NCBI RefSeq assembly: GCF_002104475.1
Contig: NZ_NBOF01000006.1
Coordinates: 124,001-188,000 of the forward strand
Reading direction: 5' to 3'
Origin: Cognaticolwellia mytili
GTDB taxonomy: Bacteria; Pseudomonadota; Gammaproteobacteria; Enterobacterales; Alteromonadaceae
DNA length: 64,000 bases
Shown one piece after another: positions 1 to 29,381 of this stretch (positions within the stretch are counted from its first letter, which is position 1; each line of letters begins with the position of its first letter). The position numbers and the translations under genes are program-made. The notes below the pieces were generated by a model. The model did not search any database. It was not told the origin of the DNA and worked only from the letters and a program-made list of their open reading frames with translations.

Positions 1-1264
1 CATCAAAAGGGCATTCACCTCTGTTTATAGAGTCGACCTTCTCTTTACTTAGGTCTACGCCTGTTACTGAATAGCCCGCTTGTGCAAGTAAGCTTGAAAT
101 AGGCAACCCCATATATCCCATACCAATTACGGCTAAGGTTTCATTTTTAGCCACAATAGGCAGCTCAACAAACTCAGTATTATCAGCAACAATAATATCA
201 AGAATTTTCTCTGCTACATGTCCATCGCCAAATGGATTATCCCAAGTAGTGGTTATATTAGTGTCAGATAACCACCTTTCCGTGGCCGCAAGTGCCTTAG
301 TGGCATTTCTCCCTACTAATACATTAGCACCAACTTCTATTGATTCAGGTCGTTCTGTGTTTTCACGTAATGTGATACATGGAACACCTAATAAACACGC
401 TTCTTCTTGTATGCCGCCAGAGTCAGTCAAAATTAATTGGGCGTGTTTTTGCAACTGAATAAAATCTAAATAACCAATAGGTGGCAACAATTTTAAATAT
501 TCAGGGACAGTTATATTGAATTCTTTTAATTTTGCTTTAGTCCTAGGATGAATTGGCCAAATGATTGGTTGGCTATATTTAGCGTGCAAACGGTCAAATA
601 ACTCCAATAACTCAAGTAAATTTACAGCTATATCAACATTCGCAGCTCTGTGCGCAGTCACTAAAAAATATTTTCCTGCTTCAACCTTTAAATCATTCAG
701 AATTGTACTTGTATTTGTCGAAATTTCTAAATGCTGAAAAAGAGAATCTGAAACAGTATTACCAACTGTATGTATCTTATTTGATGCGATACCTTCTTTC
801 GTCAAAATAGCTTGCTGGTTCGGACCCACTGCAAACAAATACTCACTAATGTGATCAGTCATTATACGATTAGTTTCTTCTGGCATGGTACGATCGTAGC
901 TACGTAAACCGGCTTCGATATGGCCAACTTTAATATCTAATTTAGAAGCAGCAAGCGCACCAGCAAGTACGGTATTGGTATCACCTTGAACCAAAACAAC
1001 ATCTGGTTTTTCATCTATTAATATTGGCTCCATTTTAATCAAAATATTACCAGTTTGATTGCTATGTAAACCTGAACCAACACCTAAATTATAATGTGGT
1101 GTTGGTAATGCTAATTCTTTAAAGAATATACTATCCATCTCTTCAGAGTAATGTTGATTAGAATGAATAATAAAATAAGGAATCTCACGCTTATGACATT
1201 CCCTTATAACTGGTGCCATTTTAATAATTTCTGGACGTGTGCCAACGATGATCCCTACTTTCAT
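1..1264 (-). CDS. Fused UDP-GlcNAc 2-epimerase / UDP-ManNAc dehydrogenase (WecB-WecC), C-terminus outside window
   Basis: An open frame runs without a stop from ATG at 1264 to the window edge (421 codons). Residues 1 to about 360 are a non-hydrolysing UDP-GlcNAc 2-epimerase: GTRPE at 8-12, GHIEAGLRS at 114-122, TDSGGIQEE at 280-288. The frame continues directly into a nucleotide-sugar dehydrogenase Rossmann start, with GMGYMGLP at 381-388 and then VDSINRGE as in WecC. The first domain makes UDP-ManNAc in the cytoplasm and the second should oxidise it to UDP-ManNAcA, a uronic acid precursor for the polysaccharide. WecB and WecC are usually separate proteins. The gene lies 33 bases downstream of a GT4 gene on the same strand. 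The dehydrogenase catalytic region is beyond the window, so its activity cannot be judged. Confidence 0.87.
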   Translation of the reverse strand, partial: MKVGIIVGTRPEIIKMAPVIRECHKREIPYFIIHSNQHYSEEMDSIFFKELALPTPHYNLGVGSGLHSNQTGNILIKMEPILIDEKPDVVLVQGDTNTVLAGALAASKLDIKVGHIEAGLRSYDRTMPEETNRIMTDHISEYLFAVGPNQQAILTKEGIASNKIHTVGNTVSDSLFQHLEISTNTSTILNDLKVEAGKYFLVTAHRAANVDIAVNLLELLELFDRLHAKYSQPIIWPIHPRTKAKLKEFNITVPEYLKLLPPIGYLDFIQLQKHAQLILTDSGGIQEEACLLGVPCITLRENTERPESIEVGANVLVGRNATKALAATERWLSDTNITTTWDNPFGDGHVAEKILDIIVADNTEFVELPIVAKNETLAVIGMGYMGLPISSLLAQAGYSVTGVDLSKEKVDSINRGECPFD

Positions 1265-4055: not shown

Positions 4056-5114
4056 TTAAGGTAAATTTTTCACTAAAAAAGGGCCCAACGTATTAGCAAC
4101 TAACAGTGGTAATTTTTTCCATACTTTAATCGCTAGATCAAACTTAGCATTACTAGGGGATAAATTAGGCAGCTCTCCACCTTCAGGTATCCAATGATAC
4201 CAGTAGCATTGTTGAGGCTCTGCACCCCATTGTTTTTTGAACTTATAAGTTCCGGCATCAATTGTTGAACGCCCGAAGTCAAACTCAGAACACCCACTCT
4301 CAATCGCATGAGATAATATTTGCCAATAGATGTACATATTAACTGAAATACGGTTAGCGTAAGAAAGTGTACTCGCCCAAGGTATTTCCATGCGATCTTT
4401 ATAACGGATAAGGAAACCAGTAGATACAGGTTTTCCTTGCCAATAAACAACAACTAAAGAAGCATTATCACTAAAAGTTTTAAAAATATTTTTGAAAAAG
4501 GGTTTACCATAAACAGGTGTACCAAGATCACGCATGTTCTGACAAAAAACAGCATAAAAATCATCTAACAACTCTATACCACCAATCTTGTGCTCAACCC
4601 CTTCTCTAATTGGACGTTTAATTTGTGAGCGACGCTTAGAGCCAATTAGTTTACCTAATGCTTCTGCCGATTCAGGTAAAGCTAAAACCATATTAACTTT
4701 ATCAGTGGTTACGGCTATAGTGCTATTTATTCGCTCGGTTTTTTCTCTGTATTGAACATGGCTCACGTTATTATCACTAGCTTGCTGTTGTAAGTGCGCA
4801 TTTAAGCTATCTGCAATATCTTGATTATCAGCAAGTACACCACCATAATTAAAAAAAGGCATTGAAACGATATAATTGCCAAAAAGTTTACTTTTTAGAT
4901 TTACGCTAGGTAGTACTCCACATATTTTATTATGCTGATTTATTGCGTAAAAATAGTAACATTTATGGTTAAAAGTTTCTTCTATCAAACTTTTCCATGC
5001 AGATTGATGATAGATAGAAGCACTACTATGATTACTAACATAACCATCCCAAAGTTGGATACTGTCAGCATCAAGAAGGTGAATGGTAATACTTAAATTG
5101 TTAGTTTCCGACAT
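4056..5114 (-). CDS. FemAB-related protein, XrtA/PEP-CTERM system-associated
   Basis: A 352-residue protein with two GNAT-like lobes, as in FemAB and LPXTG-independent peptidyl/acyl transferases. Typical marks are SKRRSQIKRPIREG (159-172), FDFGRS (278-283) and GTYKFKKQWGAEP (288-300). The last two are characteristic of the FemAB-like family that accompanies exosortase A loci. FemAB enzymes transfer amino acids from aminoacyl-tRNA; for the exosortase-linked family the substrate is unknown, and a role in amino-acyl or acyl decoration of the polysaccharide is only an inference. It lies 23 bases downstream of the beta-helix gene on the same strand, so the two are probably co-transcribed. Confidence 0.82.
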   Translation of the reverse strand: MSETNNLSITIHLLDADSIQLWDGYVSNHSSASIYHQSAWKSLIEETFNHKCYYFYAINQHNKICGVLPSVNLKSKLFGNYIVSMPFFNYGGVLADNQDIADSLNAHLQQQASDNNVSHVQYREKTERINSTIAVTTDKVNMVLALPESAEALGKLIGSKRRSQIKRPIREGVEHKIGGIELLDDFYAVFCQNMRDLGTPVYGKPFFKNIFKTFSDNASLVVVYWQGKPVSTGFLIRYKDRMEIPWASTLSYANRISVNMYIYWQILSHAIESGCSEFDFGRSTIDAGTYKFKKQWGAEPQQCYWYHWIPEGGELPNLSPSNAKFDLAIKVWKKLPLLVANTLGPFLVKNLP

Positions 5115-5137: not shown

Positions 5138-6157
5138 TTAGTTTAGTTCACCAACAATACCAATGATGTTAATAAGCTGGCCTAATTCTGAAATATTGGG
5201 TAAATACGGGTATGGACGTAATTTTGCCTTTTCTCTACTAATATACCAAGGATTTCTTTTACTAAATTCATTTGGATACAAAAAGTCGCCTATCATTACA
5301 TTATTTTCGATCAAAACATCATTCGCTTTTTTATAGGCAATTATAACATTTGCTTTATCACGATCTAACAAAAATAGGTTATTTGTAATTTCAATTTTAT
5401 TAATAGCATAATTAATCGGACGGTTTTCTAAACCGTACGCGATAAGCTGACTGTTAGAACTATTATCACCTTGTTGTAAAATGCTACCTTTGATTATTAG
5501 CTCGCCATAGTTAGCTACATCAATCAAACGGCTATCCTTACCATCTAATGTTGCAAGTAAACTGCTCATTACAATTGTTTTTCGTGAGCGAGATTTTAAA
5601 CCGCTGCCTTCCTCTCCCATAGAGAGCAACTTACTCTCAAAAAAGCTAAATTCACCCACGTTGGCATAAATAGCGTGCGCATACCCTTTACCTTTAGCCT
5701 TCCCTCCTAAACGTTCAAAGGTTGAATACTCAATTTTTAAAAAACCATCATTATAGTTAGTCATTACCCCTGATTGGCTATCATGAGCATATAGATCGCG
5801 TACCGTTAAATTGATGCCTTCAAACCGAATACAAGCACCGTTTAAATCTTTTACGTGAATATTCCTGCATTCTACACTTTCAACTAAAACATCGTTGCCA
5901 GCCAAAACTAGCGCAGCTTTCCCATCAATAGCCGCATTATCAAAAACAACATTTTTCTCACCTATAATTTCTATATTATTCGCTTTTAAATAGACTCCTT
6001 CAGTATAGATGCCAGCTTTTAGGTATATTCGACTACCATCTTTGATCGCTAATTTTGCTGCTTGTAAAGAAAAAAATTCTTTTCCGTCAACAAAAACATG
6101 CTCAGCCCAACAATAGTGAGTTATAAAATAAAATAACAAAAAAATTATATTTTTCAT
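5138..6157 (-). CDS. Secreted right-handed beta-helix protein
   Basis: A 339-residue protein with a signal peptide (basic KN, then a hydrophobic run ending near CWA at 16-18) and repeated beta-helix rungs. The rungs appear as recurring patterns such as NNIEIIGEKNVVFDN, LTVRDLYAHDSQSG and VLIENNVMIGD at spacings of about 20-25 residues. The fold is that of pectate-lyase-like and alginate-epimerase-like proteins that act on acidic polysaccharides in the periplasm. No catalytic triad could be assigned by eye. Context with FemAB and EPS genes suggests a lyase, epimerase or binding role on the exported polymer. It has no C-terminal PEP-CTERM motif. Confidence 0.7.
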   Translation of the reverse strand: MKNIIFLLFYFITHYCWAEHVFVDGKEFFSLQAAKLAIKDGSRIYLKAGIYTEGVYLKANNIEIIGEKNVVFDNAAIDGKAALVLAGNDVLVESVECRNIHVKDLNGACIRFEGINLTVRDLYAHDSQSGVMTNYNDGFLKIEYSTFERLGGKAKGKGYAHAIYANVGEFSFFESKLLSMGEEGSGLKSRSRKTIVMSSLLATLDGKDSRLIDVANYGELIIKGSILQQGDNSSNSQLIAYGLENRPINYAINKIEITNNLFLLDRDKANVIIAYKKANDVLIENNVMIGDFLYPNEFSKRNPWYISREKAKLRPYPYLPNISELGQLINIIGIVGELN

Positions 6158-16037: not shown

Positions 16038-17936
16038 CTAATGGTTAGTGTTTTTTCGCAGCCACTCTTCTAAAACAACTAACTGCCACAATGTTTTATG
16101 GTGATCAAATTTATCATTATTATGCTCAACAATAAGTTGTTTAATGCGCGATTTTTTAAAGAATTGATGTAATATTGTCTCTTCTGACAACAATAAGTTT
16201 TCGGCGTAACCTCTTAATTCGTTTTGAAACATTAGTTTCAGTGGCGTAGGGAAACCCATTTTTTTACGGTAAATGATGTCATTTGGTAAAATTCCTTCCA
16301 TCATTTTCTTTAACGGATACTTACCTTCACCTTTTTTAATTTTATGCTTACTTGGAATGGTTGCCGCAAATTCAACTAACCGATAATCTAAAAATGGCAC
16401 TCTTAGCTCAAGGGAAGCTGCCATACTCATACGATCAGCCTTTATTAGTAAGTCATCAACCAACCAAGTTTTTGTATCAAAATAGAGCATTTTGCTTAAC
16501 GTGTCTTCACCTTTTGTTTTCTCAAAAAGGCCTTCTGTATAGTCACGGCTAGTAATTTGATCACTTTGCTCAATTTCAGCCTTAAATTCAGCTGTATATA
16601 GCGCTTCTTTTTGATGATCAGGGTAAGTAGACATACCTTTATACCGTTTTTCTATCGGCAATGTTGCCATTGTTAAGTATTTAGATACTTTATGGCTTTC
16701 ACCGAAAACTTTATTGGCAATACCAGCAAAAAAATTACTGCCGGTTTGCCCAACAACAGCACGATATTTATCCAATACGTTCATGTACTGATATAAGTCA
16801 TAACCCGCAAATATTTCATCCGAACCTTCGCCTGATAAAGCAACCGTTACTTTCTCTTTCGCCAGCTTAGCGACAAAAAATAATGATATAGCAGCAGCTT
16901 CGGTAACTGGCTCATCCATTAAAGAGATGTATTCAGGAATAAACTCTTTAAATTGTGCGGGGGTTATTTTTATTTCATGATGATCTGTTTTAAATTTATC
17001 AGCAATAATTTGTGCGTAAGGGGTTTCATCAAAACCCTTGCCAAAATCATAGCCAATAGAAAAAGTTTTAAGCGGCTCCTCCACTCTATCAGCAAGCAAA
17101 CCAACAACAGCGCTAGAGTCTATTCCACCACTAAGAAAAATCCCAAGAGGTACATCACTACGCAAACGTAAATCAATAGCACTATCTAACAGCTTTTTGC
17201 TACCATCAACGTAATAATCAAACCCTTTATCCTGACTATTATCAAATTGTAGATCCCAATATTGAGTAATAGTAAGCTCATTACTTTTTCCGGCATTATT
17301 TTTAAGTATGGCGTAATGCCCCGGCATTAATCGTTTAATCCCCTGATGTAAGGTATTTTCGCCAGGAATATAGCCAAAACTCATGTAACTATCGATTAAT
17401 TGGGTATTAAGTGCCGGTTTTTTTTCTAGGCCTTTTAGAATCGCCTTGGTTTCAGAAGCAAAAATAAATTCCTTTTCATTTTGTAGATAATAAAGAGGTT
17501 TAATGCCAAGCCGATCTCTCGCGAGAAATAATTCTTGTTTATTACCATCCCAGATAGCAATCGCAAACATACCATTAAAGTGTTGCAAACAATCAACGCC
17601 ATACTCAATGTACGCCTTGAGTACAACTTCAGTATCAGCACCTGTTTCAAAGGTATAGCCTTTCGCTTCTAAATCAGTGCGAATTTCGAGATAATTATAA
17701 ACTTCACCATTATAGGAAATGACACAATTATGGCTAGCTTCTTCTCTAGGCTGATGTCCTGCGGGAGTTGGATCTAAGATGCTTAATCGAAGATGAGCAA
17801 GCCCTATTTTTTCTTCATTATCAAACCATATACCATTACTGTTTGGGCCACGATAAGGCATAGTATCCCGCATCAACTTGATACGTGATTTATCGACAAT
17901 GCTATCGACACTACTGATCCCTAAAATTCCACACAT
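16038..17936 (-). CDS. asnB: Asparagine synthase (glutamine-hydrolysing), AsnB family
   Basis: I start this at ATG 17936 because the class II glutaminase needs Cys directly after the initiator (MCGILGI); a longer frame to 18023 would bury it. The resulting 632-residue protein has the N-terminal glutamine amidotransferase domain (Cys2, RLSILDPTPAGHQP, NGEVYNY, DTEVVLKAY, DRLGIKPLYY) and the AMP-forming synthase domain with the PP-loop LSGGIDSSAVVG near 266-277. Length and motifs match AsnB. It either makes asparagine or, in this setting, amidates a sugar carboxylate using glutamine nitrogen. It is the first gene of the acyltransferase operon and one of three asparagine-synthase homologues in this locus. 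Confidence 0.88.
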   Translation of the reverse strand: MCGILGISSVDSIVDKSRIKLMRDTMPYRGPNSNGIWFDNEEKIGLAHLRLSILDPTPAGHQPREEASHNCVISYNGEVYNYLEIRTDLEAKGYTFETGADTEVVLKAYIEYGVDCLQHFNGMFAIAIWDGNKQELFLARDRLGIKPLYYLQNEKEFIFASETKAILKGLEKKPALNTQLIDSYMSFGYIPGENTLHQGIKRLMPGHYAILKNNAGKSNELTITQYWDLQFDNSQDKGFDYYVDGSKKLLDSAIDLRLRSDVPLGIFLSGGIDSSAVVGLLADRVEEPLKTFSIGYDFGKGFDETPYAQIIADKFKTDHHEIKITPAQFKEFIPEYISLMDEPVTEAAAISLFFVAKLAKEKVTVALSGEGSDEIFAGYDLYQYMNVLDKYRAVVGQTGSNFFAGIANKVFGESHKVSKYLTMATLPIEKRYKGMSTYPDHQKEALYTAEFKAEIEQSDQITSRDYTEGLFEKTKGEDTLSKMLYFDTKTWLVDDLLIKADRMSMAASLELRVPFLDYRLVEFAATIPSKHKIKKGEGKYPLKKMMEGILPNDIIYRKKMGFPTPLKLMFQNELRGYAENLLLSEETILHQFFKKSRIKQLIVEHNNDKFDHHKTLWQLVVLEEWLRKNTNH

Positions 17937-18254
17937 ATATTGATATACTCCATTCTGATAATATTGATTTTTAGCATCTATGAGTAATTCTAACTGTTTT
18001 ATTAGACAGTGAAAAGTGAACACTGTTTTACATCTTAGATTATTTTTTGTCGCTCATTGAGCTACTTTAGATTTTTATAAAAGGCTTAGCGATAGCTATA
18101 ACTTTACTAGTTGCACTATCGCTATTATAAATTGGCCAACCACGATTTGTTTGACTCTTAATTAAGAGCAACTTGAGCCCAACGAATTAACATTTTGGTA
18201 CCAAATAAATGAGTTTATATTCTTAATAGAATATAAACTTTAGCTAGTACCAAG
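17937..18254. other. 318-base intergenic region with inverted repeats
   Basis: This separates the end of the XrtA operon from asnB; both are leftward. No gene is visible. A dyad at 18088-18095 and 18116-18123 (AGCGATAG/CTATCGCT) and a long AT-rich stem at 18212-18239 (listed separately) lie here. The asnB promoter should be in the part below about 18070, but I could not fix it with good -35 and -10 boxes. Confidence 0.4.
18212..18239 (-). terminator. Candidate AT-rich hairpin after the XrtA operon
   Basis: Eleven-base perfect inverted repeat: arms at 18212-18222 and 18229-18239, loop TTAATA, located 16 bases downstream of the last gene of the operon. On the minus strand it is followed by a T-rich but imperfect tract (CATTTATTT). 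The stem is almost all A/T, so termination strength is uncertain. Confidence 0.4.
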
Positions 18255-19952
18255 CTACTTTATTGCGTTAAGTTGATTAAAATATTTAACTAAATAAGAA
18301 AAATCTTTGATTCCAAGCCTATGCAGCGTCATAGCAATAAACACTTTTTTGCTGTCAAAATACTGTTTAAATACACGAGCATGCTTCACTTGACGATAAA
18401 TGTCATAATCATCACGGCGATTAGTACTTTTTTTCGCACTCACTTCCCATTGATATGATAAACCCTCTGGAGTTTTTAAAGGACATTCTTCATGCTTAGG
18501 ATAGGTTTGCCATGGTGTGGTTTGTGCACAACTAGGGAAAAATTTAAACCATTTCATATAAAACTTATGGTAAAGCAATTCATGGCTTGGTAACGCATAA
18601 ATTGTTGCTAAAAATTCACTATCAAAGAAAGGTAAATGTAGTTCAACTTTATGCTGACAAATTGTTTCAAAGTGTACTTGCAAGTGACGTTTTTGATCGT
18701 TATTCATCAAAAAATAATATATAGCTTTAGCTGGGTCATTTTTATTTATTAAAAACTCTTTGGCTACGGTATTCTCCAATAAGCGATGAGTTTTCTGTAC
18801 GTATTCTTTTTTTAAAAACCGTGTTGGTAAGTTTATTTTAGTCGATAATAAGTACTTCTCTACTGCAGTCGGTAGATCTCCGTTGATAAGTGCATTGTTA
18901 ATATCTTCATTAATATAAACATGACCAACTGCGACACTTCCACCATCACCCGACCATACCGTCCCCCTATTGGTCACTTTATCTAAGGAATGATCGATAT
19001 CTTTAATCCCATCGGCTATCAATTGAGCCCAATTGGGGTAGGCGAGTTTAGCAAATTCTTTTTCGTGATGAACCAAGCCTGCATTTTCTGCAAAAACTCT
19101 TGCAAATTCATTATCTTGTGAACGCCCCGTTGAAAAATTGAATGTATGTAATGTATCCACATGAGCTTTAACCTGTGAACAGATAACTCTCGAATCCAAT
19201 CCGCCACTTAAAAATGCAATGGCTTCACTGCCTTGGTTCAAGCGCAATTTCACCGCATTATCAAACAGTTTGTATGCATCTTCAACGTCATCATTGGTTA
19301 GCTCGCTTTTAACCGGAATATTCTGCCAATCCCAGTACGATTCAACGCTTACGACATTATTATTCAAGAATAAAATCTCGCCACCGTTAAGCCGCTTTAT
19401 ATTTTCGTATGGCGTTCTGTTCGCCAAGCAAAAACTAAACGCCAAACTCTCACATAAACCGTCAAAATCTGTATCTAAATTTACAAATGGTAAATTTTCA
19501 AAAAACAACATTAGCGAAGAATAAATCAATACATCGTCGTATTGATAATAATAAACTGGCCTTATACCCAATTTGTCTGTAAATATGAAAGTGCTTTTAG
19601 ATGTATTATTTAGCTTAACGCCGGAAAAAACCCCTTTTGCTTTTTTAAGCAAGCTCTTCAGACCAGTTATACCTTCGGCTGAATTAATACTTTTGATTTC
19701 ATTATATCGATCATCACCTTCAGTTCTAAATAATGGATCTCCAGCAATAGTAGCGATGCTATTGCTGGACTCGTTTATATTGCCTTTTTCATCTTCCGAA
19801 ATATTAAAAGAAAGAAATAAGCTGCTATCAGTAGAAATCTCAAATATATTTTGGTGTAAGCAACTTTGTTGAAATACTCTGGTAATAATTGATTTTCTTT
19901 CAGAAGAAATTTTCTCATTTGATAAACTTATTATACCTGCAAAAACTGTCAC
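18255..19952 (-). CDS. Asparagine-synthase-like protein lacking the glutaminase cysteine
   Basis: I start this at GTG 19952: a GGAG site precedes it by seven bases and GTGA overlaps the alanine racemase stop. The 565-residue protein keeps the two-domain plan of asparagine synthase, with TDKLGIRPVYYY in the first domain and the ATP-binding PP-loop LSGGLDSR near 248-255. The N-terminus, however, reads M-TVFAGIIS where AsnB has MCGI, so the nucleophilic Cys2 is missing and NGEIYNY-type glutamine-binding motifs are not recognisable. It should adenylate a carboxylate but take its amine from something other than glutamine hydrolysis. Coupling to an alanine racemase makes an amino acid amine plausible (inference). 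It is the last gene of the XrtA operon. Confidence 0.75.
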   Translation of the reverse strand: MTVFAGIISLSNEKISSERKSIITRVFQQSCLHQNIFEISTDSSLFLSFNISEDEKGNINESSNSIATIAGDPLFRTEGDDRYNEIKSINSAEGITGLKSLLKKAKGVFSGVKLNNTSKSTFIFTDKLGIRPVYYYQYDDVLIYSSLMLFFENLPFVNLDTDFDGLCESLAFSFCLANRTPYENIKRLNGGEILFLNNNVVSVESYWDWQNIPVKSELTNDDVEDAYKLFDNAVKLRLNQGSEAIAFLSGGLDSRVICSQVKAHVDTLHTFNFSTGRSQDNEFARVFAENAGLVHHEKEFAKLAYPNWAQLIADGIKDIDHSLDKVTNRGTVWSGDGGSVAVGHVYINEDINNALINGDLPTAVEKYLLSTKINLPTRFLKKEYVQKTHRLLENTVAKEFLINKNDPAKAIYYFLMNNDQKRHLQVHFETICQHKVELHLPFFDSEFLATIYALPSHELLYHKFYMKWFKFFPSCAQTTPWQTYPKHEECPLKTPEGLSYQWEVSAKKSTNRRDDYDIYRQVKHARVFKQYFDSKKVFIAMTLHRLGIKDFSYLVKYFNQLNAIK

Positions 19953-21097
19953 TCTACTTCTCCATCTGTATATATATATTGACAACGCTTACCAATACTA
20001 CACATTACTTCATATGATATTGTATCTGACCATGTAGCGATATCATCTAAGGTAATATTCTGCTCACCATCACCACCAATCAAGGTTATCTTAGTATTTT
20101 TTGTCACATTGCTACACTCAGTAATGTCTAGCATCATAAAGTCCATGCAAATATTACCCACAATATTTGCTCTAACATTATCAACTAGTACGAACCCTTT
20201 GTTGCTAGCGAGTCTTGGATATCCATCAGCGTAACCGACAGGAATAATAGCGATTACACTATCTTTCTCTGCAAGCCATGTACTGCCATAGCTTACAGGT
20301 TCGCCTTTATTCAATCGTTTAATCTGTATGGGATATGTATACCAACTTAATATTGGCTTGATATCTAAAGAAATTTCTGAACTCATTGGTGAGCATCCGT
20401 ATAACAACAAGCCAGTTCTAACAATATCGAACATAGCGCTATTTGTTAAAAACCCAGCACTATTAGAGGCATGAAGTGTCTTCGGTATTAGGTTATGTGC
20501 GTGCAATAAGTGCTGTGCACTTTGAAAAGTCATAAGCTGTTTCTGAGATACACGACTTCCCGGTACATCCGCACAAGAAAAGTGAGTGAAAAAACCAGCT
20601 AAATGGATATTATTTGCATTCTTAAGTAAATCTATAACTTGTAATAATTCATGATTTAAAAGACCCGTCCTAGACATTCCAGTGTCCAGCTCCAAATGCA
20701 CATTTATATCCCATGAACAGTGAGCAATCAACTCTTTCAAATTATCGATACTATATACGACTGGCAATAAATTATAGCGTTTAACTTCACTCAAGTGGGG
20801 GATATAATCACAGCCAAAAAGCAATATCGTCGGCTTTATTATTCCTGATTTTCTGAGTTCAATTGCCTCATCAACGCTAGCCACCGCAAAGTGACATACT
20901 TTTAAAGCTTGTAGTTTCTTGGCAACTTTGATGGCACCATGCCCGTATGCATCCGCTTTTACCACGGCACAAATATCGGCATTACCGCTTTTATTATTTA
21001 GCTGCTTAAAGTTATATTCTAACTTTGCCAGATCAATTGTAATAATAGATCGCTGTGTATACATAGTGTGTGTTATTTCCTTATCAAGAGCTAACAT
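19949..21097 (-). CDS. alr: Alanine racemase (PLP-dependent)
   Basis: A 382-residue fold-type III PLP enzyme. The PLP lysine is K47 in AVVKADAYGHG; the second catalytic Tyr is in PVSYGSTW near 268; VGYADGYPR, GNICMDFMMLDIT and DTISYEVMCSIGKR complete the family pattern. It interconverts L- and D-alanine in the cytoplasm. The first ATG immediately follows the flippase stop (TGAATG); ATG at 21064 gives a more family-like 371 residues and is a real alternative. A racemase gene inside an exopolysaccharide operon is unusual, since D-Ala for peptidoglycan is normally supplied by a stand-alone alr or dadX. Its GTGA overlap with the Cys-less asparagine-synthase homologue suggests it feeds that enzyme. 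Confidence 0.92.
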   Translation of the reverse strand: MLALDKEITHTMYTQRSIITIDLAKLEYNFKQLNNKSGNADICAVVKADAYGHGAIKVAKKLQALKVCHFAVASVDEAIELRKSGIIKPTILLFGCDYIPHLSEVKRYNLLPVVYSIDNLKELIAHCSWDINVHLELDTGMSRTGLLNHELLQVIDLLKNANNIHLAGFFTHFSCADVPGSRVSQKQLMTFQSAQHLLHAHNLIPKTLHASNSAGFLTNSAMFDIVRTGLLLYGCSPMSSEISLDIKPILSWYTYPIQIKRLNKGEPVSYGSTWLAEKDSVIAIIPVGYADGYPRLASNKGFVLVDNVRANIVGNICMDFMMLDITECSNVTKNTKITLIGGDGEQNITLDDIATWSDTISYEVMCSIGKRCQYIYTDGEVE

Positions 21098-22534
21098 TCA
21101 CGATTTTTTATCTTTCTTAACAATGCTAATTATTTCATCTTTGTAAAACAGCCAATACGAAAATAGAATAACACCGCCACCCACTAGTATTTTTACCAAC
21201 AATGATTCAACTAAACTGACATCTCCTGTTAATAAAAATAAATCTACTAAATATATAATAAGCCACATCAGACATGAAATAATGAAAGGAATAAGCCAAC
21301 AAAATACCGTAGAGTATTTCAGCTTGTATTTCATTTTTACACGTACTATTACTATGAAAAAGGCGAGTAAAAATGATATCAGCCAAGCCATTGCTGTTGC
21401 TTGCAGTCCAAATTGGACACCTATAAGTATTCCCACAATAACAAATACTGAAATCAAAACCGTATTTTTTATTGCAAAGCCAGCATCATCCATCGCTATA
21501 ACAAAGTTATATATCACTGCATTAAGCATACGAAAAGGAAAAACCAAAGCAAATATAGCGATAATAGCAACCGCTTCACTCCATTGCGCCCCCAGAAATA
21601 ATAATACAATTTCATGTGATACTGCTGAAATACCCAAAAAAATTGGAAACACAGCCAGCGATAATAAGCTCAACGCCTTTTCTAAATAATAACGAGTAGC
21701 ACTAAGGTCTTCTTTAAGTGAGGAGAATGCTGAAAAACCAACTTGGTTTAAAATAGCGGATATTTTAGTCATGGGTAATGACGCGATTTCTACAGCAACA
21801 TTATATATACCAAGTTGCTGGACACCCACAAATTTTCCAATAATTAATGCATCTAGTTTATTATATGTAAACCAAATCAACTCAATGAGTTGGATTTTAC
21901 CTGCGAAAGAAATAATCTTATTAAAATCATTAAAATTCAATGTTATACGGTATTTCACTTTAGTCATATAATTGAGTAAAACACTACGAACTAAAAGCTC
22001 GACACCCAATGCAAAAATAAGGGCCCAATAACCTGCACCTGAATATGCGCTATATAATGCTACAAAAGTAGCTCCTAGTGCAGCAGTGGCTTCACATATT
22101 GCTTTAACTTTAAAGTTCATTGATATATTAAGGGCGGCTGTCGGGATAATACAAAAACTATTTAACGGTGTAATAATCGCCATCGCATAAATAATCAGCT
22201 CTAACTCCGACTTACCATAAAAATTTGCAATATTTGACGCTAATGCTGCGATACAAATACCAAATAAAATATAGATTCCAAATGATAAGGTAAATAACTG
22301 GTTACTACCTTGCTCTTTTATATTTTGCGATTTAACAAGTGCAGTAACAAAGCCATTTACGGTAAAAATACTGATAAAAGTAAAGATAACTGATGTTATC
22401 GCGACAAGCCCATAGTCATTAGGACTTAAAAGGCGAATAACAAGAAATGTTGAGATCCAAGAAAATAATTGTACGAGTAGTTTTGCGATAGCAGACCATT
22501 TCAAGCCTGTTATTACTTTTTCTTTTAATGTCAC
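21098..22534 (-). CDS. Polysaccharide flippase, Wzx/WzxC-like (MOP superfamily)
   Basis: A 478-residue inner-membrane protein with about 12-14 hydrophobic spans. It opens with KEKVITGLKWSAIAKLLVQ and LLSPNDYGLVAITSV, typical of Wzx/RfbX-type translocases. It should flip the undecaprenyl-linked repeat unit to the periplasmic face. It lies between the ligase/polymerase-like gene (40-base gap) and alr (zero-base gap). It is the only flippase in the window and therefore probably serves the whole locus. Confidence 0.88.
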   Translation of the reverse strand: MTLKEKVITGLKWSAIAKLLVQLFSWISTFLVIRLLSPNDYGLVAITSVIFTFISIFTVNGFVTALVKSQNIKEQGSNQLFTLSFGIYILFGICIAALASNIANFYGKSELELIIYAMAIITPLNSFCIIPTAALNISMNFKVKAICEATAALGATFVALYSAYSGAGYWALIFALGVELLVRSVLLNYMTKVKYRITLNFNDFNKIISFAGKIQLIELIWFTYNKLDALIIGKFVGVQQLGIYNVAVEIASLPMTKISAILNQVGFSAFSSLKEDLSATRYYLEKALSLLSLAVFPIFLGISAVSHEIVLLFLGAQWSEAVAIIAIFALVFPFRMLNAVIYNFVIAMDDAGFAIKNTVLISVFVIVGILIGVQFGLQATAMAWLISFLLAFFIVIVRVKMKYKLKYSTVFCWLIPFIISCLMWLIIYLVDLFLLTGDVSLVESLLVKILVGGGVILFSYWLFYKDEIISIVKKDKKS

Positions 22535-22574: not shown

Positions 22575-23867
22575 TCAGCCAATAACTTTATTAGGTAATT
22601 GCTTGTTAGAATTGATGTGCTTTATACAAAATAATACTGACAACAACACATACAATAAATCGTAATAAGCCATACTGAGTAAGCCGCCAGAAATCATATA
22701 TACAAGAATAACTGTATTTATCGCCTTAGATAAATCTTGTATCCATTGCTCTTTTCCTTTTTTTAGCAGAGATCTACTAGTAAAATAACCTTTTAATAAC
22801 ATTGATAAAAACAATATAAGACCTAGAAAGCCAAGGTCTCCTAATACTTGGAAATAAATACTGTGTGCAGCTTTTGGATAGTTAATAGGGCTATTCTTTT
22901 TCGTAATAAAGTCAAAATCATGTATATCACTATAGTAGTAGCTCCAGACATGAAAATGCTGTATTGAATCTTGTCCGGCACCAAGGATAGGACTATCTAA
23001 AGCAGCAATTGTAGCGAGTTTCCATGCTGTCACTCTTCCCAGAAATGACGCATCTTGATCAGCATGTTCAATAGTCTGTATACGATCTGTCCATTTGTCC
23101 GCTGCAATATAAATAGCGGAGGACGCAAAAACAATACTAAAGAGAATAAATAAAAATTTCCGTTTAACTTTTAAAAACACTTGCCAGCTAACTATAATTA
23201 AGCCAATAAATCCGCCTCGAGAGAATGAACCAATGACACAAACCGCTGATAACCCAGCTAAACCAGCAAAACCTAATTTAAGGTATTTGTGTTTTACTTG
23301 GGAGATAATATATAAATAAAGAGGAATAACCATCAATATCGCCAACGCAAATAAATTATTATCTGTCATCATTGAATTATTAATACCGACAATCTTATAG
23401 TTTCCTGCTGTTGCTAAAAATTTTAGTCCTTCAAAAAATATATTAAATCCGACTCCTAACAACATTGAAAATAAAAATGTTTCGATCCTATTCTTAGTGG
23501 TCAACAGGATCATTATTAAACAGCTCAACAATACTGCTTTAAAGAAGTCACTCCAAACTATCCATGAAGCTTCACTTGAGCCGAAAGTAAACATATTGGA
23601 AAAAGCTGACTGAATTAAAAGCAGCAGCATTAAAATAAACATACCATTAAAAGGCGACTTTCTTAATGGGTCTTTATCAAAGAACAAACCGATGATTGTA
23701 GCTATCGCTAAGATATACGTGAAGCGGATATCAGAAGAAAAACCCCAAAGCATATTTTTAGGTATTGCCATTATTGTCCAGATCCAACCACAAAGGCCCA
23801 AAAAAGGATTTCTTAATGCCAGAATAAATAATGGAGAAAACATTAATAAAAATATTATATCTTTCAT
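22575..23867 (-). CDS. O-antigen ligase/polymerase-like protein, exosortase A system-associated
   Basis: A 430-residue multi-spanning protein with a Wzy/WaaL-like plan, including a large loop near residues 255-340 (FLGRVTAWKLA, LGAGQDSIQHFH, PKAAHSIYFQVLGDLGFLG). The N-terminus (FSPLFILALRNPFLGLCGWIWT, then KNMLWGFSSDIRFTY) matches the putative O-glycosylation ligase family of exosortase A loci as I remember it. With no other polymerase in view, it may polymerise the repeat units rather than ligate them to protein. Its ATG overlaps the stop of the small upstream membrane protein by four bases. Confidence 0.82.
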   Translation of the reverse strand: MKDIIFLLMFSPLFILALRNPFLGLCGWIWTIMAIPKNMLWGFSSDIRFTYILAIATIIGLFFDKDPLRKSPFNGMFILMLLLLIQSAFSNMFTFGSSEASWIVWSDFFKAVLLSCLIMILLTTKNRIETFLFSMLLGVGFNIFFEGLKFLATAGNYKIVGINNSMMTDNNLFALAILMVIPLYLYIISQVKHKYLKLGFAGLAGLSAVCVIGSFSRGGFIGLIIVSWQVFLKVKRKFLFILFSIVFASSAIYIAADKWTDRIQTIEHADQDASFLGRVTAWKLATIAALDSPILGAGQDSIQHFHVWSYYYSDIHDFDFITKKNSPINYPKAAHSIYFQVLGDLGFLGLILFLSMLLKGYFTSRSLLKKGKEQWIQDLSKAINTVILVYMISGGLLSMAYYDLLYVLLSVLFCIKHINSNKQLPNKVIG

Positions 23868-25147: not shown

Positions 25148-27040
25148 TTATTTTTTTTCTTTATCTAAGAATGAGGCTAATACTAGTAATGCCCAAATTA
25201 ACACACCATTATTTATGGTTCGGTTTTGATGAGCTTCAGTAATTTTTTTTAATTCACTAATGTTAAATATGTTCAACGATACAAGGTGTTCCGATAAAAT
25301 TCTTTTTTCTAATGTTGCTTGAGGTATTTGTCTTATCCATTCATCTAGTGGAGAAGTAAAGCCCATTTTTTTTCTTTCTAATACGAAATTAGGAACTAAG
25401 CCTTCTACCGATTTTGCAAGAACCTGTTTTACTTTATGTTTTTTAAGATTAAGTTTTTCATTTAAACCTAAGCCCCATTCGACCAGTTTATAATCCAAAA
25501 ATGGCACTCTTACCTCTAAAGAGCAAGCCATACTTGCTCTGTCGACTTTAGTTAAAATATCTCCAGGCAAATATGTTTTAAAGTCAATATACTGCACTTG
25601 CTTCACAGGACTTAAGTTATCAACTTCACTAGCTATTGATTTAAATTGGCTTAAAGCGCTGTATCCTTCCAATTTTTGCTTAAATTGATAAGAGTATAAT
25701 TTATTTAAGGTTTCACTGTCGGATAACGACATTGCGTTATAAAAGCTCGTTATTGGATCATTTGTTAGCGCTTTAAACGTAGATTTTGCCCTTAGAAATT
25801 GAGGCGCTTTATCAAGTTTTGGATAATATTTTGCCAACAAATTAAACACAGGTTTTGTGAATTTATTTACGAAAGTAGCACGAAGTTTTTCTTCAAAATT
25901 TAACATTTGGTAATTTCGGTAACCAAAAAACAACTCATCACTGCCATCGCCTGAAAGGGCAACTTTTACCTTCTCTTTCGTTACCTTACTTAATATTAAA
26001 GTTGGAATAGCTGAATTATCAGCAAAAGGTTCATCAAACGTATCAACAACCAGGTCGACCAATGAAAGATCATTTACCGACACATTCGTCGTTGAATGCT
26101 TTGTTTTAAAGTGTTTAGCTACTTTCTCAGCAAAGTATGATTCATCATATTTTGATAAATCAAAGCCTATTGAGCTTGTTGTAATTGGCTCTGCACTTAA
26201 CTGACTCATAAAGGCCACTATCGCAGAAGAATCAACCCCTCCAGATAAAAAAGCACCAAGCGGCACGTCTGCTACCATTCGGTCTTGCACTGCCTTACTT
26301 AGCTGAGCATGTACATCTTCGATGTTATAGCTATTCTCATTTCTGGTGATATATTCTTTTAGATGCCAATAGGCTTCATTAATAAATAATTCAGGCGAGT
26401 TTTGATCTAAAAGAATAAAGTGCCCTGGTAGCAGTTTCATTACTTCTAAATAGATAGATTTTGGCTCTAAGACATAACCTAATGATAGATAATCTTCTAT
26501 CGATTTTAAGTTAATATTTAATGGAATTTTTGTATGTTTTTTCAACGCCTTTATTTCTGAAGAGAAAACAATTTCATTTTCTGTTGTTTTCGCCCAGTGA
26601 AGCGGTTTAATGCCCAATCTATCTCTTGCGGCAAACATTTGCTTTTTATTTTTATCAAAAAGAACAAAAGCAAACATACCATTAAGTTTATTTACACATT
26701 GCGTATGCCACTCTAACCAGGCATTCACAATGACTTCAGTATCACTATTGGTATTAAATTGATAACCTAAGCTTATTAATTCACTACGCAATTCTTTATA
26801 ATTATAGATTTCGCCGTTATAAGTAATACCAACAGTTTTAGTTTGATCGAATAATGGCTGATGGCCTCCTTCTAGGTCAATTATTGACAAACGAGTGTGT
26901 GCTAGGGCAATACCATCGGAGATATAAACACCATCACCATCTGGACCTCGGTGATGCTGGCTTTGATTCATTTTATTGACGGTATTTTTATCTATATCAA
27001 ATAAATGATCATGGTGAAAAATAGCTACAATTCCGCACAT
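25148..27040 (-). CDS. Asparagine-synthase-like amidotransferase 1, exosortase A system-associated
   Basis: A 630-residue protein with a complete class II glutaminase domain (Cys2 in MCGIVAIF, RLSIIDLEGGHQP, NGEIYNYKEL, DTEVIVNAWLEW, DRLGIKPLHW) and an AsnB-like synthase domain with PP-loop LSGGVDSSA near 264-272. The LEGGHQPLF and LGYVLEPKSIY features match the amidotransferase 1 family that marks XrtA loci, as opposed to housekeeping AsnB. By family analogy it transfers glutamine-derived ammonia to an activated carboxylate, probably of a uronic acid in the polysaccharide; the substrate is not experimentally known to me. Confidence 0.88.
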   Translation of the reverse strand: MCGIVAIFHHDHLFDIDKNTVNKMNQSQHHRGPDGDGVYISDGIALAHTRLSIIDLEGGHQPLFDQTKTVGITYNGEIYNYKELRSELISLGYQFNTNSDTEVIVNAWLEWHTQCVNKLNGMFAFVLFDKNKKQMFAARDRLGIKPLHWAKTTENEIVFSSEIKALKKHTKIPLNINLKSIEDYLSLGYVLEPKSIYLEVMKLLPGHFILLDQNSPELFINEAYWHLKEYITRNENSYNIEDVHAQLSKAVQDRMVADVPLGAFLSGGVDSSAIVAFMSQLSAEPITTSSIGFDLSKYDESYFAEKVAKHFKTKHSTTNVSVNDLSLVDLVVDTFDEPFADNSAIPTLILSKVTKEKVKVALSGDGSDELFFGYRNYQMLNFEEKLRATFVNKFTKPVFNLLAKYYPKLDKAPQFLRAKSTFKALTNDPITSFYNAMSLSDSETLNKLYSYQFKQKLEGYSALSQFKSIASEVDNLSPVKQVQYIDFKTYLPGDILTKVDRASMACSLEVRVPFLDYKLVEWGLGLNEKLNLKKHKVKQVLAKSVEGLVPNFVLERKKMGFTSPLDEWIRQIPQATLEKRILSEHLVSLNIFNISELKKITEAHQNRTINNGVLIWALLVLASFLDKEKK

Positions 27041-27881: not shown

Positions 27882-29381
27882 TTATTGAGCCAAAGTTACA
27901 TGTTGATTAATTTCAAAAAAATTTTCAGACATAAATCTATCTAACATTCTATCGGCTTTATGTTCATTAGCTGATGATAATACAATAACCTTCCCACCTA
28001 GGTCGGTCATCATTATTTTGTTCATTAGCTGTAGCAATTTAAATTGGACTCTACTTGCTGATAAATGACTGCCTACTCTATATATGACTCTAAGTTTACG
28101 CTCTTCACCCTGTATATTGACAATAGAATACGAACTGTAAGGTATTGAATCACCTTTATTAGTTATCATTTCATTTGTCGAGATACTTTTAATAGACCAA
28201 TAATCTGTATTAAATAGTCTATTTTTATAACCAATAACTTCTTTCTCATCTGTCTCATACTCATAATTAGCGATAAAAATATCAACATTAGTATTACTTG
28301 AGCTCTTTGATGAGAGATACATAGAATCAGCATTAGGAAAACTTGGTAACCAATTATTGTTAAATTTAAAGGGAGCTCTTATAGAAGGCTTTTCAGCCAA
28401 ATGACTAGCTTTTTGAAATACCAATAAATCTAAATGACTTTCATATTTATATTTTAATACAGGCCCTATGAATAAAAACAACAAAGCAATAGTTATAAAT
28501 ATTGCAGAAGGATATTTTTGAGGTGCTTTTTTTATTTCAATTCGGTTGCACTCGTCTTCTTTATCTTCTGCATCAGTCATATAGTAACCAATAACAAACA
28601 ACAAGCCTAAAATGATGGTAAAAAACACTCCGCCATATACTAAATGATCAAAACCAACCGCCGCTTGCATATCAGATAAGTGACCAATAAGAATCATTAA
28701 GAAAGCTCTTAATCCATTCCCAATAATAGCAACAACACAACATAGCAGTACGAATACAATTTTTTTATATAATCGATTAAAATTTAGATAAGAATATAAA
28801 ATACCTATGGTAATAGTTGAAATTAAAAAACGAATTCCACTACAAGCTTCTGCAACATGAAAATTTCCGTTGGGTATTTGTATATACATACCATCCCGAA
28901 AGACTGGAATACCTAAGGCGTTTATCATAAAGACTGATATATCCGCGGTAATAAACTGCAGATAAGGAATTAAAAAATCTCCAATAGGAATTGATAAGTA
29001 TAAAAAAGCTAATGGAAATTTTAATGAAAGTACTATATTCCAACCAAAAAAAGCCCAAGTTAAAACAATAAACAAACTGAATAATACGAATTGCTCTAAA
29101 ACATTAATATACGACAAAGCACTAATAAACCAAAAGAACGATGTTAAACCGATAAGACATAAAGCAAGTAAAGAGGGTTTAGTATCAATTTGTGCAAGCA
29201 CATGTTTTTTTCGCTCAACCAACCAAAGGACGATAGGAAAAATTAAAAAGCCGTGACCATAGGTGTTGGAGCTTTGCCATATTTGAACAAGTCGAGTGAA
29301 CGAGCTGCTAAAGGCAAAAAACATACATAATATTATGCAACTGACTAGAAGGACATTAGTGAAATACCTGTTAATTGGCAT
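27882..29381 (-). CDS. xrtA: Exosortase A with C-terminal EpsI-like domain
   Basis: A 499-residue protein. The first ~270 residues are the polytopic exosortase domain. The putative catalytic residues are all present: Cys180 in VAEACSGIR, Arg225 in GNGLRAF and His246 in VGFDHLVYG. After the last span comes a periplasmic EpsI-type domain (roughly 320-480; FNNNWLPSFPNADS, VDIFIANYEYE). Exosortases are thought to cut and transfer proteins with a C-terminal PEP-CTERM signal while they cross the membrane, together with EPS synthesis. No protein in this window ends in such a signal. It lies seven bases after the XrtA deacetylase gene. Confidence 0.93.
   Translation of the reverse strand: MPINRYFTNVLLVSCIILCMFFAFSSSFTRLVQIWQSSNTYGHGFLIFPIVLWLVERKKHVLAQIDTKPSLLALCLIGLTSFFWFISALSYINVLEQFVLFSLFIVLTWAFFGWNIVLSLKFPLAFLYLSIPIGDFLIPYLQFITADISVFMINALGIPVFRDGMYIQIPNGNFHVAEACSGIRFLISTITIGILYSYLNFNRLYKKIVFVLLCCVVAIIGNGLRAFLMILIGHLSDMQAAVGFDHLVYGGVFFTIILGLLFVIGYYMTDAEDKEDECNRIEIKKAPQKYPSAIFITIALLFLFIGPVLKYKYESHLDLLVFQKASHLAEKPSIRAPFKFNNNWLPSFPNADSMYLSSKSSSNTNVDIFIANYEYETDEKEVIGYKNRLFNTDYWSIKSISTNEMITNKGDSIPYSSYSIVNIQGEERKLRVIYRVGSHLSASRVQFKLLQLMNKIMMTDLGGKVIVLSSANEHKADRMLDRFMSENFFEINQHVTLAQ

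Follow-up and report, generated by a model that had tools for sequence, protein, structure and literature searches.

The 64,000-nucleotide stretch of the Cognaticolwellia mytili genome analysed here (the window; G000:C35:124001-188000, from a 4.5-Mb genome in 42 contigs) carries, within an exosortase XrtA locus for exopolysaccharide (EPS), a gene for an asparagine-synthase-like (AS-like) protein that overlaps a second alanine racemase gene, alr2. The durable finding of our work is that the AS-like gene belongs to a small, motif-defined subfamily of exosortase-type EPS loci. Our preferred reading, which we hold tentatively, is that this subfamily is distinct and glutaminase-dead, that its members would act as ATP-dependent ligases, and that the racemase, Alr2, is an extra, non-obligate companion.

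An earlier sequence-only reading of this DNA had proposed a complete module, in which alr2 provides D-alanine (D-Ala) and the AS-like protein works as a beta-lactam synthetase does, activating a uronic acid (for instance N-acetylmannosaminuronic acid) by adenylation and then coupling the D-Ala to it. That interpretation is partly supported: the genes, the second racemase and the tight coupling in this genome stand, and a conserved pairing of the two genes does not.

Motifs, conservation and fold of the AS-like subfamily

The AS-like protein begins MTVFAGII, with a threonine in place of the cysteine at position 2 (Cys2) of MCGIxGI, and it retains FLSGGLDSR. The sequence-only reading had correctly seen the kept PP-loop, SGGLDSR, and the lost MCG nucleophile; RGPD and NGE are lost too, and the synthetase half is also altered. 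The Asn_synthase scores of three close relatives are 37.5–63.6 bits, and a GATase_7 match in the AS-like protein is marginal (25.5 bits, cut-off 25). The protein fails the models for glutamine-dependent asparagine synthase (TIGR01536, 98.5 bits against a cut-off of 267.1), the XrtA amidotransferase (TIGR03108, 69.1 against 816.9) and the lasso peptide cyclase (NF033535, 73.5 against 525).

The three close relatives are full-length proteins at 39–46% identity, found in a named genome collection: a Paraglaciecola metagenome-assembled genome, Thalassotalea algicola M1531 (G074) and Glaciecola sp. XM2. The scan gave 11 loci, of which eight were dropped, one as an AsnB-type open reading frame (ORF; L078) and seven because they were read, without a family search, as PurF-like. 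We aligned the four close members with 16 other AS homologues (two from the window, three from the relatives' loci and 11 from IMG/VR contigs). The PP-loop, as SGG[LIV]DS, is present in 4/4 members, in 16/16 other homologues and in a fifth member (27% identity, from another class). RGPD and NGE are absent from all four close members, and position 2 is T, S, T and N in these proteins; this variation rules out Thr2 as a new N-terminal nucleophile. SG[DE]xxDE is replaced by SGDGGSV in 5/5 members, whereas DE is present in 16/16 other homologues. Likewise, KxG[FW] is absent from the four close members and present in all 16 others. In AsnB and beta-lactam synthetase, the acidic pair is a metal ligand and the KxG[FW] lysine is catalytic. 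The fifth member retains FLSGGLDSR, WSGDGGSV, NDQRRHL, LPFFD and PWQxY.

Beta-lactam and carbapenam synthetases have an AS fold that lacks the glutaminase cysteine. Among the 16 other homologues, 14 have Cys2, and the two that do not, which come from the same Thalassotalea and Paraglaciecola loci, keep both DE and KxGF. Thus, loss of Cys2 alone does not bring the other losses, and the idea that the AS-like protein has lost only its cysteine, as beta-lactam synthetase has, is weakened. In the analogy drawn by the sequence-only reading, the cysteine loss holds; the acidic pair is replaced, and the lysine was not found by its motif. A further Cys-less homologue with DE and KxGF occurs in Paraglaciecola (L075:14901-16640) and Thalassotalea (L076:14946-16760), and by their motifs these proteins would be better candidates for a beta-lactam-synthetase-like amine ligase than the AS-like protein. 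The source genome also encodes another Cys-less AS-like protein (MTGLVG start; L047:9192-10979, on G000:C12), in a cluster with a flippase and sugar genes, which has an aspartate at the position where the AS-like subfamily has a serine.

A pseudoenzyme that keeps the fold, may bind nucleotide or sugar, and serves as a scaffold or regulator at the flippase or ligase would account for the loss of the DE pair (5/5) and of the lysine motif (4/4 scanned), both of which two other Cys-less homologues of the same loci keep; the usual neighbour of the AS-like gene is, moreover, a membrane transporter. Yet across classes the PP-loop is maintained together with a new set of invariant residues, and of the protein's two halves the synthetase one is better conserved. 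Among the four close members, the glutaminase halves are 25–40% identical and the synthetase halves 38–50%, a ratio of 0.60–0.85 in 6/6 pairs, against 1.01–1.12 in 3/3 pairs for the canonical amidotransferase of three loci, which served as a control (the Paraglaciecola copy is clipped by the locus end and begins ~20 residues late). The synthetase half is therefore held by selection. Across the three relatives' loci, identity to the window is highest for the AS-like protein (39–46%), lower for the ligase (31–33%) and lowest for the flippase (21–24%). These comparisons suggest that the AS-like gene is probably not decaying, and we consider a pseudoenzyme unlikely.

A structure model built from the 20-sequence alignment reached a predicted local distance difference test (pLDDT) score of 81.7 and a predicted template modelling score (pTM) of 0.86; one built from four sequences was poor (pLDDT 50.7, pTM 0.38). 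The top Foldseek matches of the 20-sequence model were TsnB9, AsnB, human asparagine synthetase, beta-lactam synthetase and carbapenam synthetase, a result partly built in because 16 of the 20 alignment rows are other AS homologues. Since segment 482-491, where the KxG[FW] lysine would be expected, is modelled at a pLDDT under 50, a replacement of this residue in space is possible.

Distribution of the subfamily and its loci

At 40% identity or more, the AS-like protein was matched in 2 of 196 genomes of its family, its own included. Any match at E ≤ 0.001 was found in 153 of the 196, and nearly all of those listed were partial and, judged by the stretch of protein matched, AsnB-type. Wider searches found 2/295 genomes of the order at E ≤ 1e-25, 4/369 of the class at E ≤ 1e-30 (its own and three partial matches of 108–111 bits) and 2/398 of the phylum at E ≤ 1e-40 (its own and that of the fifth member). 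IMG/VR viral contigs gave no match with the AS-like family alignment and 25 AS relatives with a mixed alignment. The XrtA deacetylase scored above cut-off in 46/295 genomes of the order, both AS-like carriers included, in a draw of the same size as that for the AS-like protein, the two not matched genome by genome.

The features of the window on which the argument draws are as follows.

18255..19952, minus strand: AS-like gene, 565 residues, GTG start; Asn_synthase 59.7 bits (cut-off 21)
19949..21097, minus strand: alr2, the genome's second alanine racemase gene; TIGR00492 331.7 bits (cut-off 168)
21098..22534, minus strand: MOP-type (Wzx-like) flippase; NF007773 174.7 bits, below the cut-off of 273
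22575..23867, minus strand: putative O-glycosylation ligase, exosortase A system-associated; TIGR03097 330.6 bits (cut-off 188.1)
25148..27040, minus strand: canonical amidotransferase with MCG, near TIGR03108 (774.7 bits, cut-off 816.9); the control gene
27882..29381, minus strand: exosortase XrtA; TIGR03109 301 bits (cut-off 208)
16038..17936, minus strand: another canonical AsnB-like gene (MCGILG), which follows the AS-like gene after 318 bp
4056..5114, minus strand: FemAB family XrtA/PEP-CTERM protein; TIGR03019 348.4 bits (cut-off 260.35)
1..1264, minus strand: WecB-WecC fusion, source of amino-uronic acid; extends left past the window end

The Cys-less protein is encoded in an XrtA operon, as had been claimed. 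The genes upstream, which share its orientation, are those for the ligase-like protein, two glycosyltransferases, the canonical amidotransferase, XrtA, the XrtA deacetylase and the XrtA glycosyltransferase. The WecB-WecC fusion named in the sequence-only reading is real: it is a single ORF of 756 residues, with 1006 bases of the fusion region left of the window. In Paraglaciecola and Glaciecola, WecB and WecC are two separate genes.

All three named relatives encode, on the same contig, XrtA-type glycosyltransferase, deacetylase, exosortase, export, chain-length and kinase proteins (BLAST against the window), and the exosortases of Paraglaciecola (336.7 bits) and Thalassotalea (337.7) exceed the XrtA cut-off of 208. 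The order of ligase, flippase and AS-like gene seen in the window recurs in these two genomes, minus alr. The flippase adjoins the AS-like gene in both of them and in the fifth genome, where the two stand head-to-head on a 5.2-kb contig, and is one gene off in the window. Canonical MCG amidotransferase copies are separate genes in the same loci as the AS-like gene. A UDP-N-acetylhexosamine dehydrogenase lies within ~30 kb of the AS-like gene in 4/4 widely read loci, as a raw count. In Glaciecola, WecB and the UDP-N-acetylmannosamine dehydrogenase are followed by one short ORF and then the AS-like gene; in Paraglaciecola the same dehydrogenase is ~28 kb away, and in Thalassotalea a TviB-type UDP-N-acetylglucosamine dehydrogenase is ~15 kb away.

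Several observations weigh against a ligase subfamily tied to exosortase loci. First, the AS-like protein has another sequence in place of the synthetase-site acidic pair and lacks the motif of the lysine, so that ordinary adenylation may be impossible for it. Second, the subfamily has only five members in the genomes searched here, and relatives at 24–28% identity (L042:9139-10827, L043:9834-11495, L044:8718-10373) lie outside EPS loci within the 20 kb read; one relative in this range has SDGLDS instead of SGGLDS. Third, the Glaciecola exosortase scores 159.4 bits, below the XrtA cut-off of 208, although it passes the general exosortase model, and the Glaciecola flippase is ~6.5 kb from the AS-like gene. 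Finally, decoration could instead be the work of the neighbouring AT3 and AsnB genes.

Some features of the surroundings stand apart from this question. A 28-base imperfect palindrome lies at window 18212-18239, in the gap that separates the AS-like gene from the AsnB-like gene after it. Promoter-like sites occur at chance level (30 found, 32.6 expected), terminator-like sites above it (10 found, 4.1 expected), and the search for the latter found none at the end of the AS-like gene. Window 5138-6157 encodes a protein of 339 residues, unannotated and without a Pfam match at E ≤ 0.01, which has a relative at 39% identity in the Thalassotalea algicola locus (L127:13993-14982). XrtA is above cut-off in only 1 of 17 genomes of the genus, and the window's XrtA locus is thus sporadic within it; in 15 of the remaining 16 an exosortase scores 160–182 bits, below the cut-off.

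The second alanine racemase

Alr2 carries both Ala_racemase Pfam domains, and its alignment keeps KADAYGHG and SYGSTW, the pyridoxal phosphate lysine motif and the catalytic tyrosine motif of alanine racemase. The source genome has two TIGR00492 matches, and the other alr sits 7 bases behind the DnaB gene (TIGR00665 577.6 bits, cut-off 385.25). Since that gene is the housekeeping copy, alr2 is an extra racemase, and a housekeeping role for it, which the sequence-only reading had set as the outcome if alr2 were the only such gene, is ruled out. The two Alr proteins of the genome are 33.6% identical. Among solved structures, the best matches to Alr2 go by the names serine racemase (4ecl) and alanine racemase 1, so that its substrate may be alanine or serine; the VanT-G model gives 307.7 bits, below its cut-off of 460.

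The flippase gene, alr2 and the AS-like gene form a gapless series on the minus strand. The first ATG of the alr2 frame comes right after the flippase stop codon, and the TGA stop of alr2 overlaps the GTG start of the AS-like gene (19952) as GTGA, with a GGAG 7 bases before the GTG; overlap and ribosome-binding site are as first described.

This arrangement is not conserved. With both Alr proteins as queries, tblastn found no alr in 80–95 kb around the AS-like gene in any of the three close relatives, and none on the fifth member's 5.2-kb contig. Nor did it find any around nine further AS-like genes (L042-L047, L049-L051), for each of which 20 kb were covered; L041 is a repeat of T. algicola, and the neighbourhoods checked are a subset of all AS-like matches. 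Across all these regions, the window and the housekeeping site were the sole locations of alr. The absence of alr around all relatives examined rules out a fixed alr/AS-like module; a pair not conserved in related XrtA loci was an outcome that the sequence-only reading had itself named as a refutation. The absence does not refute every use of D-Ala, because each relative genome has its own alr and can make D-Ala: TIGR00492 is above cut-off once in each of the three relative genomes, with a second Glaciecola match of 36 bits, below the cut-off, counts that for Paraglaciecola and Glaciecola rest on assemblies of unstated completeness.

How much of the proposed module survives can now be judged. 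The GTGA overlap with a dedicated second racemase, the amino-uronic acid dehydrogenases in 4/4 widely read loci and the N-acetylgalactosaminuronic acid (GalNAcA) amide-linked to D-Ala in the Microbulbifer capsule (PMC3210612, available in part) speak for it. But the synthetase motifs are altered and the three close relatives have no adjoining alr, even if their housekeeping alr could still give D-Ala. We consider the full module improbable.

Nor need Alr2 serve the polysaccharide at all. A passenger or back-up racemase would fit the lack of alr in related loci and the rarity of its own kind: in 147 family genomes, the sole other protein at E ≤ 1e-60 to Alr2 is one at 34% identity. It would fit less well with the packing of alr2, without gaps, between the flippase and the AS-like gene, and with a GC content of 37.0%, within the range of the locus genes (31.1–37.4%). 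We judge this explanation rather unlikely.

A different customer within the locus is conceivable. Alr2 might feed another enzyme, such as the FemAB XrtA protein of the window, with the D-amino acid ending on the sugar through which exosortases link proteins; the genome has 15 PEP-CTERM matches above cut-off. One source shows that the linking sugar on proteins of the type IX secretion system is aminoacylated and amidated; it suggests that exosortase loci may use their FemAB-type proteins to help make a similar compound, and it calls the compound to which exosortases attach proteins unidentified (PMC7468200). However, the amino acids described there are seryl and glycyl, and nothing links alr2 to the FemAB gene, ~15 kb apart. 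This route seems very unlikely.

Proposed role and known systems

Under our preferred reading, the AS-like protein would most likely be a cytoplasmic, ATP-dependent ligase that adds a small group to the lipid-linked repeat unit before export; this group is probably an amine or amino acid, placed on a sugar carboxylate. Alr2 would be a local recruit, a surplus racemase whose gene is coupled to the AS-like one in this strain and which probably provides a D-amino acid, D-Ala being the first candidate, for some step in making the strain's polysaccharide. That the AS-like protein is an active enzyme, what it acts on, what it makes and that D-Ala is used at all are inferred. A stronger version seems to us quite unlikely: a so far undescribed subfamily of AS-like ligases, its active site rebuilt (FLSGGLDSR, WSGDGGSV, NDQ[KR]RHL, PWQxY), works on polysaccharide units of exosortase-type loci and, in this strain, draws on the D-amino acid of the operon's dedicated racemase, so that either the EPS or the exosortase linking sugar bears a D-aminoacylated uronic acid.

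The chemistry of the sequence-only reading, a D-alanyl uronamide on the polysaccharide, is possible by analogy because such polysaccharides exist in other bacteria. Its statement that some marine polysaccharides carry amino acids amide-linked to uronic acids is borne out by other bacteria with alanine amide-linked to amino-uronic or uronic acids (PMC3210612, PMC4663550). The capsule of Microbulbifer is built as a homopolymer of GalNAcA in amide linkage with D-Ala and Pseudoalteromonas has 2,3-diacetamido-mannuronoyl-L-alanine (both PMC3210612), Colwellia 34H carries threonine on its capsule and alanine on its EPS (PMC5852497), and a Vibrio EPS carries alanine and serine amide-linked to galacturonic acid (PMC4663550). 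The portions of this literature that we examined name no ligase gene for the Microbulbifer, Colwellia and Vibrio polymers, and no enzyme joining amino acids to uronic acids in marine polysaccharides. A literature search, with most subscription journals outside its scope, found no described alr/AS-like pair in an exosortase locus. Excerpts of two further papers report a Rubrivivax polysaccharide cluster with three asparagine synthase genes (PMC3684757) and an AS-like enzyme that makes a nitrile, an instance of the family's varied chemistry (PMC13060819). A small AS-like subfamily with an unusual active site offers a concrete candidate for modification chemistry in exosortase-type EPS loci, and strains with and without alr2 provide a natural comparison.

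It is useful to set the locus beside known systems. The amino acid-decorated polymers of Microbulbifer, Colwellia and Vibrio are the product class that the sequence-only reading proposed. Capsule loci of A. baumannii contain alt, a gene for alanine transfer, for which the available text of one paper gives D-alanine in a table and L-alanine in prose (PMC9676051); a K17 GalNAcA/D-Ala amide is cited in the parts seen of PMC10320297 and PMC9676051.

Closer in kind are the XrtA/PEP-CTERM amidotransferase (TIGR03108) and WbpS, likewise AS-type proteins of exosortase and O-antigen loci, WbpS being associated with uronamide formation in the accessible part of PMC7468200. The AS-like protein falls far below the TIGR03108 cut-off, and canonical copies sit in the same loci. 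Beta-lactam synthetase (1jgt/1mbz) and carbapenam synthetase (1q15) are matched by both Foldseek and HMMER, more weakly than TsnB9 and AsnB. Unlike them, the AS-like protein has no acidic pair, its lysine was not found by motif, and its locus is one for EPS, not for an antibiotic. With the asparagine synthetase superfamily (PF00733), including E. coli AsnB (1ct9) and the hydroxyamidotransferase TsnB9 (7ylz), the protein shares the Asn_synthase domain, FLSGGLDS and the two-domain layout, and these two enzymes are its best Foldseek and HMMER matches; it differs from them in lacking Cys2, RGPD, NGE and the KxG[FW] motif and in carrying SGDGGSV for SG[DE]xxDE.

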